Assembly (NCBI GenBank): GCA_025363675.1 | Contig: JANYDJ010000142.1 | Span: 1-53,525, forward strand | From: Flavobacteriaceae bacterium | GTDB taxonomy: Bacteria; Bacteroidota; Bacteroidia; UKL13-3 | Reading direction: 5' to 3' | Length of the DNA stretch: 53,525 bases | Shown: positions 35,077 through 50,543 of the stretch, in pieces | Position numbering within the stretch: the stretch's first letter is position 1 | How the letters are laid out: each line of letters opens with the position of its first letter | Notes under the pieces: generated by a model | Seen by the model: only the letters and a program-made list of their open reading frames with translations | Databases searched by the model: none | Told to the model about the DNA's origin: nothing | Position numbers and translations under genes: made by a program

Positions 35077-35081
35077 GTTTT

Positions 35082-35154
35082 AGGGGTAAGGAATAAGGGA
35101 TAAGGAATAAGGACCATTCGGCGTCAGCCCCTTACTCCTTATTCCTTATCCCTA
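35082..35154. repeat. Heptamer-arm inverted repeat with CCATTCGGCGTCAGCC core
   Basis: taggggtaaggaataagggataaggaataagg / accattcggcgtcagcc / ccttactccttattccttatcccta; arms are reverse-complementary. Confidence 0.9.
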
Positions 35155-42074: not shown

Positions 42075-42160
42075 TTTAGTGGTTAGTAATTAGTAATCAG
42101 TAATCAGTGGCTGACGCTTCATGGACTAACGACTAATTACTAACTACTAATTAGTCGTTC
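42075..42160. repeat. Heptamer-arm inverted repeat with GGCTGACGCTTCATGG core
   Basis: ttagtggttagtaattagtaatcagtaatcagt / ggctgacgcttcatgg / actaacgactaattactaactactaattagt. Confidence 0.88.
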
Positions 42161-47928: not shown

Positions 47929-48120
47929 GGTTAATGGTTAATGATGAATTATAAATGATGGATGGTTAATGGTTAATGGTTGATGGTTAATGGTTAATGG
48001 TTAATGGGCTGACGCATGATGGTGGATGGTTAATGATGGAGGAAGAATGATTAATGATGAATGGTTAATGAGATGAGACCTGATAATGAATTATAAATGA
48101 TGAATGATGAATTGGCTGAC
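47929..48120. repeat. Long heptamer array (TTAATGG-type) with two GGCTGACGC cores
   Basis: ggttaatggttaatgg...gatggttaatggttaatggttgatggttaatggttaatggttaatgGGCTGACGC...; second GGCTGACGC at 48114-48122. Confidence 0.9.
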
Positions 48121-48146
48121 GCCAGATTTTTGAATTTGGGTGTCAG

Positions 48147-48175
48147 CGTCATTCTGAACTTGTTTCAGAATGACG
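48147..48175. repeat. Perfect hairpin CGTCATTCTGAA-cttgt-TTCAGAATGACG
   Basis: 12-bp perfect arms, 5-nt loop; same unit as in 20161-20238. Confidence 0.9.
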
Positions 48176-48186
48176 TGGTGCTTTTT

Positions 48187-48278
48187 AGAATTTAGTTATT
48201 AGACATTTAGAATTTAACTCTACTGACTTGATACTCGACTTGATACCTGATACTTTATACTTGCTACTTTATACTTAA
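48187..48278. repeat. Heptamer-type array (ATACTTT-like)
   Basis: actgacttgatactcgacttgatacctgatactttatacttgctactttatactt. Confidence 0.65.
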
Positions 48279-48288
48279 TTTCGCGGCC

Positions 48289-49029
48289 TTGCAAAAAGAT
48301 AAAACCATACATGTCGATTTATTTGTGCCTTGCCATATAGATCAGTTTTGGCCTGAGACGGGCTTTAATATGAAACGACTTTTGGAACTTGCCGGTTGTG
48401 TGGTGCATTATAATACCGAACAAACCTGTTGTGGACAGCCCGCCTTCAATGCCGGATTTTGGGATGATGCTAAAGAGGTGGGTGAAAAATTAATCGGCGA
48501 ACAAATTGCTGGACATTATATGGTAGCCGCTTCATCGGGCTGTGTAAGTATGGTTCGCCAATCGTATAATACTTTGTTTGAAAATACCTCAGTTCACAAT
48601 CCCAGTAAAAATTTACAAAAAATATTTTTCGACTTTGCTGAGTTTTGGGTTGATGTTTTAGACAATCCGCCGCTGCAAGCTACCTTTAATACTAGGGTGG
48701 CATTGCTCGATAATTGCAAAGGTATGCGTGATTGTAAAATATTTGACCAACCCCGCAAACTCCTTGGCCAGGTAGAAGGATTGGAGCTGGTAGAAATAAA
48801 AGACTATGATACTTGTTGCGGATTTGGTGGAATGTTCGCAGTAAAGTTCGAACCTGTATCGGTTGCCCTTGCCGAAGAAAAATTAAAACATGTATTAGAC
48901 ACTGGTGCCGAGTTTCTAGTATGCACAGATGGTGGCTGCCTCATGCACCTCGATTCCTATATCAAGAAAAATAATTTACATGTGAAAGCGATTCATATAG
49001 TAGATTTATTAGTGAAGGGACTTAAGTAG
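48289..49029 (+). CDS. (Fe-S)-binding oxidoreductase subunit, LutA/YkgE-like
   Basis: Two CCG-type cysteine motifs (EQTCCGQPAFNAG, YDTCCGFGGMFAVK) plus DNCKGMRDC; start as TTG near 48289. Confidence 0.88.
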   Translation: MQKDKTIHVDLFVPCHIDQFWPETGFNMKRLLELAGCVVHYNTEQTCCGQPAFNAGFWDDAKEVGEKLIGEQIAGHYMVAASSGCVSMVRQSYNTLFENTSVHNPSKNLQKIFFDFAEFWVDVLDNPPLQATFNTRVALLDNCKGMRDCKIFDQPRKLLGQVEGLELVEIKDYDTCCGFGGMFAVKFEPVSVALAEEKLKHVLDTGAEFLVCTDGGCLMHLDSYIKKNNLHVKAIHIVDLLVKGLK

Positions 49030-49059
49030 GAGTAAGGGGTAAGGAATAAGGAGCAAGGA
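49027..49059. repeat. Left heptamer arm flanking the four-helix-bundle gene
   Basis: taggagtaaggggtaaggaataaggagcaagga; 19-bp exact direct repeat AAGGGGTAAGGAATAAGGA with 49433-49451. Confidence 0.88.
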
Positions 49060-49074
49060 AAAACAACAAATTAT

Positions 49075-49428
49075 ATGGCAATTAAAAGATTTGAAGATGT
49101 GATATGCTGGCAGAAATCGCAAGATTATGCTGTGAATGTGTATGGGATATTCAGCTCTTTGAAAGATTTTGGGTTTAAAGATCAAATTTGTAGAGCAGTC
49201 GTTTCTATTTCAAACAATATTGCAGAAGGTTTTGATAGAAGTTCGAATGCCGATTTTAGCAGATTTTTATATATAGCCCTGGCATCATGTAGTGAAGTTA
49301 AATCTATGTTATACTTAGCAGAAAAACTTAAATATATTAAAACAGAACAAAGAGACAATTTACTAAAGCAAGGCGACGAAATATCTAGTATTATTAGAGG
49401 CCTTATTAAGTCCATGAAAACTATTTAG
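49075..49428 (+). CDS. Four helix bundle protein (S23/IVS-type)
   Basis: FEDVICWQKSQDYAVNVYGIFSSLKDFGFKDQICRAVVSISNNIAEGFDRSSNADFSRFLYIALASCSEVKSMLYLAEKL. Confidence 0.92.
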   Translation: MAIKRFEDVICWQKSQDYAVNVYGIFSSLKDFGFKDQICRAVVSISNNIAEGFDRSSNADFSRFLYIALASCSEVKSMLYLAEKLKYIKTEQRDNLLKQGDEISSIIRGLIKSMKTI

Positions 49429-49500
49429 GAGGAAGGGGTAAGGAATAAGGACCATTCGGCGTCAGCTCCTTATCCCTTACTCCTTATCCCTTTTTTCCTT
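49429..49500. repeat. Right heptamer arm pair with CCATTCGGCGTCAGC core
   Basis: gaggaaggggtaaggaataagg / accattcggcgtcagc / tccttatcccttactccttatccc; shares 28 nt exactly with the 35082-35154 element. Confidence 0.9.
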
Positions 49501-49514: not shown

Positions 49515-50543
49515 ATGCGAAACCCCAACCTTAGTGCCGACGAAGAAAACCTGGACAATACCGAAAAGGAACTGGAGAAAGTACTCCGCCCCCAAGCCTT
49601 TGGCGACTTTAGCGGACAAGATAAAACTATAGAAAATCTTAAAATATTTGTGGGTGCTGCCCGCTTGCGTGGCGAAGCACTCGACCATGTATTGTTGCAC
49701 GGGCCTCCGGGTTTGGGTAAAACTACCTTGGCACATATTATATCAAATGAATTAGGTGCGGGAATAAAAATTACTTCAGGACCTGTTATAGAAAAGCCCG
49801 GCGATTTAGCCGGACTGCTTACCAATTTAGAACAAGGCGATGTATTATTTATTGACGAGATACATAGATTAAGCCCTGTGGTGGAAGAGTATTTATATTC
49901 TGCCATGGAAGATTATAAAATTGATATCATGCTAGAGAGCGGCCCCAATGCCCGCTCTATACAAATTGGTATCAATCCGTTTACGTTAATTGGTGCTACT
50001 ACACGTTCGGGTTTGCTTACGGCTCCGCTGCGTGCAAGGTTTGGTATCAATGCCCGATTAGAATATTATGATGTAAAATTATTGACCAGTATTGTAAAAC
50101 GCAGTGCGGGAATTTTGAAAACACAAATAGTAGATACTGCCGCCCACGAAATTGCCAAACGTAGCCGAGGAACCCCACGTATTGCAAACGCTCTATTACG
50201 CCGCACCCGCGATTTTGCCCAGATGAAAGGCGATGGAACTATAACATTTGAAATTGCACAAATGGCTTTGGACGCATTGAATGTAGACTCGCACGGCCTC
50301 GACGAAATGGACAATAAAATTCTCACCACTATTATAGAAAAATTTAAAGGCGGACCTGTGGGATTAAATACTATAGCCACTGCAGTAAGCGAAGACGCGG
50401 GCACTATAGAAGAAGTATACGAACCCTTTTTAATACAAGAAGGTTTCCTTATGCGTACCGCCCGTGGCCGCGAAGCCACAGAACTTGCTTATAAGCATTT
50501 GGGGATTATGCCGCATAGGGGGAATAGTACGCAACTGTTTTAG
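49515..50543 (+). CDS. ruvB: Holliday junction branch migration DNA helicase RuvB
   Basis: [72 protein letters not shown]. Confidence 0.97.

Follow-up and report, generated by a model that had tools for sequence, protein, structure and literature searches.

To our knowledge, the S23/IVS-type four-helix-bundle (4HB) proteins have no assigned function in the very many genomes where they are annotated. The closest described systems are the intervening sequences (IVS) of 23S ribosomal RNA (rRNA) genes. For example, the IVS of Coxiella carries tandem GACAGAT heptamers before its S23 open reading frame (ORF) and a 28-bp terminal inverted repeat, and RNase III is the enzyme that cuts out classical IVS (PMC4990558). 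Heptamer intergenic repeats have been described in cyanobacteria, Beggiatoaceae and Bacteroidota, and there is no agreed cause for them so far (PMC4679880). The TAACTGA repeats of Beggiatoaceae, cyanobacteria and Bacteroidetes were reported as direct repeats for which a role in translation was proposed, and for their transfer "no mechanism is evident" (PMC4679880). S23 or four helix is mentioned nowhere in that paper (0 occurrences), and no paper joining 4HB genes to heptamer arrays in general was found among the open-access literature. In this study, we analysed a 53,525-nt stretch of contig JANYDJ010000142.1 from a Flavobacteriaceae bacterium (the window), in which a 4HB gene lies within a heptamer-repeat element at 49027-49500. 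The results join two unexplained genome features by a simple rule, namely that each 4HB gene lies between inverted arrays of a heptamer of its own, and the association is far more general than the window alone could reveal.

Inverted heptamer arms around 4HB genes

The order within the element is heptamer arm, 4HB gene, heptamer arm, 15-bp core and inverted heptamer arm, at the following window coordinates:

49027-49061, plus strand: 5' purine-rich arm, tandem heptamers TAGGAGT AAGGGGT AAGGAAT AAGGAGC AAGGAAA
49034-49052, plus strand: copy 1 of the 19-bp direct repeat
49075-49428, plus strand: 4HB gene, 117 amino acids (PF05635 23S_rRNA_IVP / TIGR02436), from profile matches and an AlphaFold2 model
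49426-49453, plus strand: inner heptamer arm, the left half of the core hairpin, including copy 2 of the direct repeat (49433-49451)
49452-49466, minus strand: 15-bp core GCTGACGCCGAATGG (minus-strand reading), with 17 exact copies in this genome
49466-49500, minus strand: pyrimidine-rich 3' arm, whose heptamers are the reverse complement of those in the 5' arm

Exact copies of the 19-bp direct repeat AAGGGGTAAGGAATAAGGA start at positions 49034 and 49433 and nowhere else in the window. Across 27 nt, the outer arms (49028-49054 and 49465-49491) show 85% complementarity, and folding predicted a stem that closes the whole element. The first-pass annotation of this stretch had described an S23/IVS-type 4HB gene, an exact 19-bp direct repeat around it and reverse-complementary outer ends, and our results bear out all of these. 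In Pfam and NCBIfam profile searches, the protein matched PF05635 with 112.5 bits (cut-off 33.8; 1.4e-32) and TIGR02436 with 113.5 bits (cut-off 24; 5.3e-33). We believe that recombination between the direct repeats could provide a simple route for losing the 4HB gene.

The survey sample comprised 80 close homologues from other species, the 4HB genes of 40 same-class genomes, 100 further regions and mostly cyanobacterial plasmid copies, and it contained 228 distinct 4HB genes from Bacteroidota, cyanobacterial plasmids and one Azospirillum 23S rRNA insertion. The significance of arrays was judged by dinucleotide-shuffle thresholds; control stretches from the same loci were unsuitable as a threshold because they themselves contained further arrays. 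Motif-free autocorrelation of 116 4HB flanks gave peaks solely at lags 7, 14, 21, 28 and 35, and the lag-7 autocorrelation was 86-93 per mille in 4HB flanks compared with 23 in controls. A significant array was present in at least one flank (200 bp) of 78% of the 4HB genes, whereas the values for other genes at the same loci were 9% upstream and 18% downstream. The array period was 7 in 142 of the 228 genes, 8 in 23 and another value in 7, with no array in 56. In the period-8 group, inverted octamers take the place of heptamers around all 23 genes, for example TTAGCTTA TTAGGGAA (L229 G032:C2:46210-47924, L267 G026, L215 G028).

The arms have a fixed polarity, the 5' arm being purine-rich or AG-bearing and the 3' arm complementary to it. 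Period-7 TNAG chains were found on the plus strand upstream in 45% versus 4%, and on the minus strand downstream in 53% versus 3%; in a set unseen when the motif was chosen, TNAG was less common and the polarity was retained. A fixed TNAG consensus for all 4HB elements was rejected, as it holds in close homologues and is weak in the wider set. Upstream and downstream arms were complementary in 64% of cases within a locus versus 5% between loci (p 2e-43). This within-locus complementarity, with units that differ between loci, indicates that the arm sequence is free to vary while the two arms of one element agree. The distance from the 4HB stop codon to the next start codon had a median of 51 nt, and the 3' arm often ends near the next start.

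The repeat type followed the relatedness of the proteins. Near-identical heptamers were found in 2% of non-syntenic 4HB pairs at 20-40% protein identity, in 21% at 60-70%, in 34% at 70-80% and in 50% above 80%. The period (7 versus 8) clusters on the 4HB tree, with 13 changes compared with a mean of 21.9 and a minimum of 18 for shuffled labels. Across the 40 genomes, those with more 4HB genes also tended to have more TNAGx4 array sites (rho 0.73, p 1e-7, without phylogenetic correction), and the genomes with at most one 4HB gene had 0, 0, 0, 0, 0, 0, 0, 1 and 6 array sites; these counts come from pattern searches on draft genomes and are pattern-dependent. The reversed-pattern control also matches heptamer arrays, and the period-8 pattern run as a comparison revealed octamer arrays flanking some 4HB genes.

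In cyanobacterial plasmids, 4HB genes were seen to interrupt operons, lying between ribonucleotide reductase subunits, between cas10 and cmr3 or between cas6 and cas4, and most of them are heptamer-armed. In two related Nostoc plasmids, 4HB genes flank opposite sides of one same gene. The cas6-4HB-cas4 order was seen in two distantly related cyanobacteria (plasmid loci L168 and L175), and either shared descent or a preferred site is possible. In many marine Flavobacteriaceae, the 4HB gene lies at one conserved place, a ferredoxin-like gene following directly, and its heptamer arms differ from species to species (L085, L114, L121-L123, L125, L127, L130-L132, L137, L142).

The AlphaFold2 model of the window protein (predicted local distance difference test, pLDDT, 93.5) matched the solved S23-family structures 2RLD (template modelling score, TM, 0.81-0.85) and 2GSC (TM 0.80-0.85). 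It also resembled Avd of diversity-generating retroelements (DGR), alone (4DWL) and in the ribonucleoprotein (8UB7), with TM 0.78-0.81 and a sequence identity of 12-14%, and it had a weak match to the PHROG Avd family. The two S23-family entries contain five chains each, and DGR Avd is also multi-chain. The 4HB genes are under purifying selection (median dN/dS, the ratio of nonsynonymous to synonymous substitution rates, 0.10). No match to known nuclease, transposase or polymerase families was found in the libraries searched. A phage or defence-island gene was rejected, as neither a phage match nor a PADLOC match was obtained.

Core hairpins, occupancy and arm replacement in congeners

The comparison with congeners concerns a gene-less element of the window and the two neighbours of the 4HB element:

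35081-35154, no strand assigned: gene-less element of heptamer arm, core (35114-35128, minus strand) and inverted arm, from folding and congener comparison
48289-49029, plus strand: left neighbour, a CCG-domain gene (PF02754; LutA/GlcF-like) whose stop codon overlaps the first heptamer
49515-50543, plus strand: right neighbour, ruvB, with its start codon 15 nt past the 3' arm

The 4HB element is located between the PF02754 gene and ruvB and not inside a 23S rRNA gene; no reverse transcriptase with template and variable repeats lies next to the 4HB gene, whose neighbours are these two genes. The gene-less element folds as a hairpin (-37.3 kcal/mol, z -5.6). The 28-nt string TAAGGAATAAGGACCATTCGGCGTCAGC, reported earlier as common to both elements, occurs exactly twice in the window, at 35101 and 49439. 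Exact core copies were found in three congeneric genomes (17, 13 and 3), the 17 belonging to this genome (G000, a 3.53 Mb draft, 87% complete). Inverted heptamer arms flank both sides of 94% of these 33 copies. Nearly all of the 17 copies in G000 lie midway between inverted heptamer arms; 12 copies have TAAGGA-type arms, 3 have TTAGTC-type arms and 2 have others. The count of purine arms left of the core shows merely a purine-rich 5' arm, alike on both strands, and does not inform core orientation. The core as an essential feature was rejected, because most 4HB elements elsewhere carry arms without such a core; the core is a genus-level addition and the inverted heptamer arms are the general feature. 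The check suggested in the first-pass annotation, for arms or core around 4HB genes elsewhere, had a favourable outcome, with the inverted heptamer arms strongly associated with these genes.

Four PF05635 genes were found in G000, each amid its own repeat, with the units GACTAAC (L001), TAAGGAA/G (the window gene), TTAATGG (L003) and TTAGAAT (L004). The dominant arm type of the core hairpins is that of a resident 4HB gene, namely TAAGGA in G000 and TCAGTA in the congener G001.

In two congeners whose ruvB is 97-98% identical, the lutA-like/ruvB interval has no 4HB gene and holds other heptamer arrays. At a different site, G001 carries a homologous 4HB gene, whose protein is 94% identical and has one internal stop; TAAGGAA arms and the same core accompany it, and the DNA similarity of this copy to the window is confined to the element. 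At the site of the G001 gene, G002 has a decayed copy and G000 has a gene-less arm-core-arm hairpin. The 4HB gene (86% DNA identity) has diverged about as much as the flanks (85%), and this would fit movement or copying inside the lineage better than recent transfer. These results agree with the first-pass annotation, which had proposed that gene-less copies are non-autonomous derivatives and that relatives might lack the gene between lutA-like and ruvB: a gene-less hairpin in this genome occupies the place where a congener bears the homologous gene, and the arms and core of the two are alike. The annotation had also held that a lutA-4HB-ruvB order conserved without repeats, or 4HB genes unassociated with the repeats elsewhere, would speak against a mobile cassette, and neither was found.

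At the site of 35081-35154, the core is shared with G001, where its orientation is unchanged and the arms are TCAGTAG, and G002 has a decayed TAAGGA-type hairpin. Two more orthologous sites, L161/L300 and L159/L294, have TAAGGA arms in this genome and TCAGTAG arms in a congener, with the core flipped. Both arms have changed heptamer at three orthologous hairpins, an example of dispersed-hairpin arms changing in concert. This may be due to conversion, to re-insertion into older hairpins or to independent insertion. At L149/L303 the arms are alike and the core is flipped; the core flips at all three pairs of loci fit inversion between mirror-image arms, or re-insertion. A palindrome CCCGCCGCGGCGGG / CCGCCGCGGCGG was seen inside heptamer arrays and cores of G002 (L147, the lutA-ruvB site; L288, the 35081 site), like a nested insertion. 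No conserved terminal sequence of the kind found in miniature inverted-repeat transposable elements (MITEs) or insertion sequences was seen, and the arms vary between copies; none of the orthologous sites was fully empty, as reading a target-site duplication would require.

Other repeats of the window are also of period 7, which alone is over-represented (6 segments, versus 0 or 1 for periods 5, 6, 8, 9 and 10). Like the short tandemly repeated repetitive (STRR) sequences, the window arrays are tandem 7-nt intergenic repeats occurring many times per genome:

47925-48007, plus strand: TTAATGG heptamer array, whose unit equals the arms of the resident 4HB gene L003
19841-19890: period-7 array without a 4HB gene, unit TTAGTAG
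42076-42108: period-7 array without a 4HB gene, unit TTAGTGG/TCAGTAA
44785-44807: period-7 array without a 4HB gene, unit TTTACGA
48238-48279: period-7 array without a 4HB gene, unit TACTTTA

In a congener, 4HB genes L278/L281 have arms that are similar to the TTTACGA unit. Upstream of the lutA-like gene (48115-48180), the palindrome GTCATTCTGAACTTGTTTCAGAATGAC adjoins a GGCTGACGCC...GGTGTCAGC hairpin, possibly another dispersed hairpin family.

Proposed mechanism and rival explanations

We believe that the window element is probably an intergenic, mobile, selfish element of the IVS type, with a 4HB protein that acts on heptamers of its own class. In this model, the 4HB gene would be carried within two mirror-image arrays of its own degenerate heptamer, and the transcript or a single DNA strand would fold, like a 23S rRNA IVS, to a stem whose loop holds the gene or lies next to it. 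The solved S23-family entries and DGR Avd are multi-chain assemblies, and we speculated that the 4HB product most likely recognises heptamers of its own class with roughly one contact per unit. It would act in trans on gene-bearing and gene-less hairpins, and would thus be a candidate trans-acting factor for heptamer repeats. Same-armed gene-less hairpins could then spread, persist or supplant older intergenic hairpins, while the 4HB gene itself could be copied or moved, and lost via recombination between the flanking direct repeats. Strand cutting and copying are presumably supplied by the host, with replication or repair as the likely source, since the 4HB protein matched none of the nuclease, transposase and polymerase families searched. 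We also consider, as a tentative extension that we would lean slightly against, a new class of bacterial mobile elements with ends that have no fixed sequence and are instead mirror-image arrays of a heptamer, or in a minority an octamer, specified by the protein. Every 4HB protein of a genome would spread dispersed hairpins and rewrite their arms into its own heptamer, and the rRNA IVS and the heptamer repeats of cyanobacteria and Bacteroidota would be one family.

Several results weigh against the mobile element. The association alone fits a protein that spreads the repeats as well as one that merely rides in them. A quarter of the 4HB genes (56/228) are without a detectable array, the TNAG consensus is mainly confined to the clade of the window gene and is weaker in the wider set (the polarity persists), and the correlation across genomes is uncorrected for phylogeny. 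None of the orthologous sites examined was a clean empty site with a target duplication, and most of them bear another hairpin or array.

The strongest rival, which we nevertheless regard as unlikely, is a resident RNA-processing or regulatory module without active mobility, in which the arms would pair to a stem for RNase III and the expression of neighbouring genes would be tuned by the 4HB protein. The strong hairpins, the excision of classical IVS by RNase III (PMC4990558), the frequent position of the 3' arm near the next start codon, the conserved positions in some lineages, such as that before the ferredoxin-like gene, and the strong purifying selection on 4HB genes are all in its favour. 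It does not sit well with congeners that differ in occupancy, with neighbours unrelated in function, with numerous gene-less copies or with the replacement of arms at orthologous sites. A regulatory role is compatible with mobility, and the two are not exclusive. It is more improbable that the heptamer arrays are microsatellites of the host, lengthened by slippage, and that 4HB genes are passengers which merely insert or survive there. Slippage can lengthen arrays, and gene-less arrays far exceed 4HB genes in G000 (62 AAGGAATAAGGA sites versus 4 genes), but it leaves the mirror-image arms around the gene or core unexplained, gives no units that track 4HB protein relatedness, and would not lead to genomes almost free of arrays where the number of 4HB genes is at most one.

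Two further explanations bring in a partner enzyme, and we consider both very improbable, the second by a shade more. An Avd-like 4HB protein could use a resident reverse transcriptase for retro-mobilisation in trans, as its fold match to Avd, alone and in the DGR ribonucleoprotein, and the weak PHROG match would suggest. However, the RVT_1 number in the 40 genomes correlated neither with array sites (rho 0.04) nor with the number of 4HB genes, and RVT_1 matches were absent from nine genomes that have 6-11 4HB genes, one of which is G001 with its 297 array sites. Dependence on a reverse transcriptase was therefore left unsupported by these counts. The other explanation is spread by a Y1 transposase (TnpA_REP, or REP-associated tyrosine transposase, RAYT) in the manner of repetitive extragenic palindromes (REP) and bacterial interspersed mosaic elements (BIME), with the 4HB gene incidental. 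Y1 transposases are present in most of these genomes and the hairpins are similar to REP substrates, but after allowing for the 4HB number the Y1 number had a partial r of 0.02 with arrays, whereas the 4HB number retained 0.69. G002 and G032 had no Y1 match despite 48 and 88 array sites, and the annotations of genes next to the inspected plasmid 4HB genes name no Y1 gene. Dependence on a Y1 transposase is likewise unsupported.

Comparison with known systems

The TAACTGA and cyanobacterial STRR arrays share with the arrays described here an intergenic period of 7, a multicopy nature and a position directly before start codons (PMC4679880); they differ in being published as direct repeats without a link to 4HB genes. 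DGR Avd is similar in fold (TM about 0.8 to 4DWL and 8UB7), whereas the 4HB protein has no reverse transcriptase partner and an identity of only 12-14%. The REP/BIME sequences with RAYT (TnpA_REP) and the MITEs are also short dispersed hairpins of which few bear a gene. In contrast, the arms of the elements in this study vary between copies, the elements show no Y1 dependence, and neither a conserved terminus nor a target duplication was seen.

The closest system is the 23S rRNA IVS of Coxiella, Leptospira and Azospirillum, which has the same protein family and inverted repeats that enclose the ORF and form a stem. The window element differs in that it is intergenic between protein genes and not in rRNA, its arms are entire heptamer arrays with an element-specific unit, gene-less copies are dispersed and a core is present. 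In our survey, the 4HB gene of an Azospirillum plasmid lies inside a 23S rRNA gene (Rfam RF02541) and is flanked by ACAGAGG/ACGGAGG-like units and their complement, at a locus below the strict periodicity threshold. In view of these heptamer-like arms and of the heptamers and inverted repeat of Coxiella, the intergenic elements look like IVS elements outside rRNA, and they are a possible source of rRNA intervening sequences.
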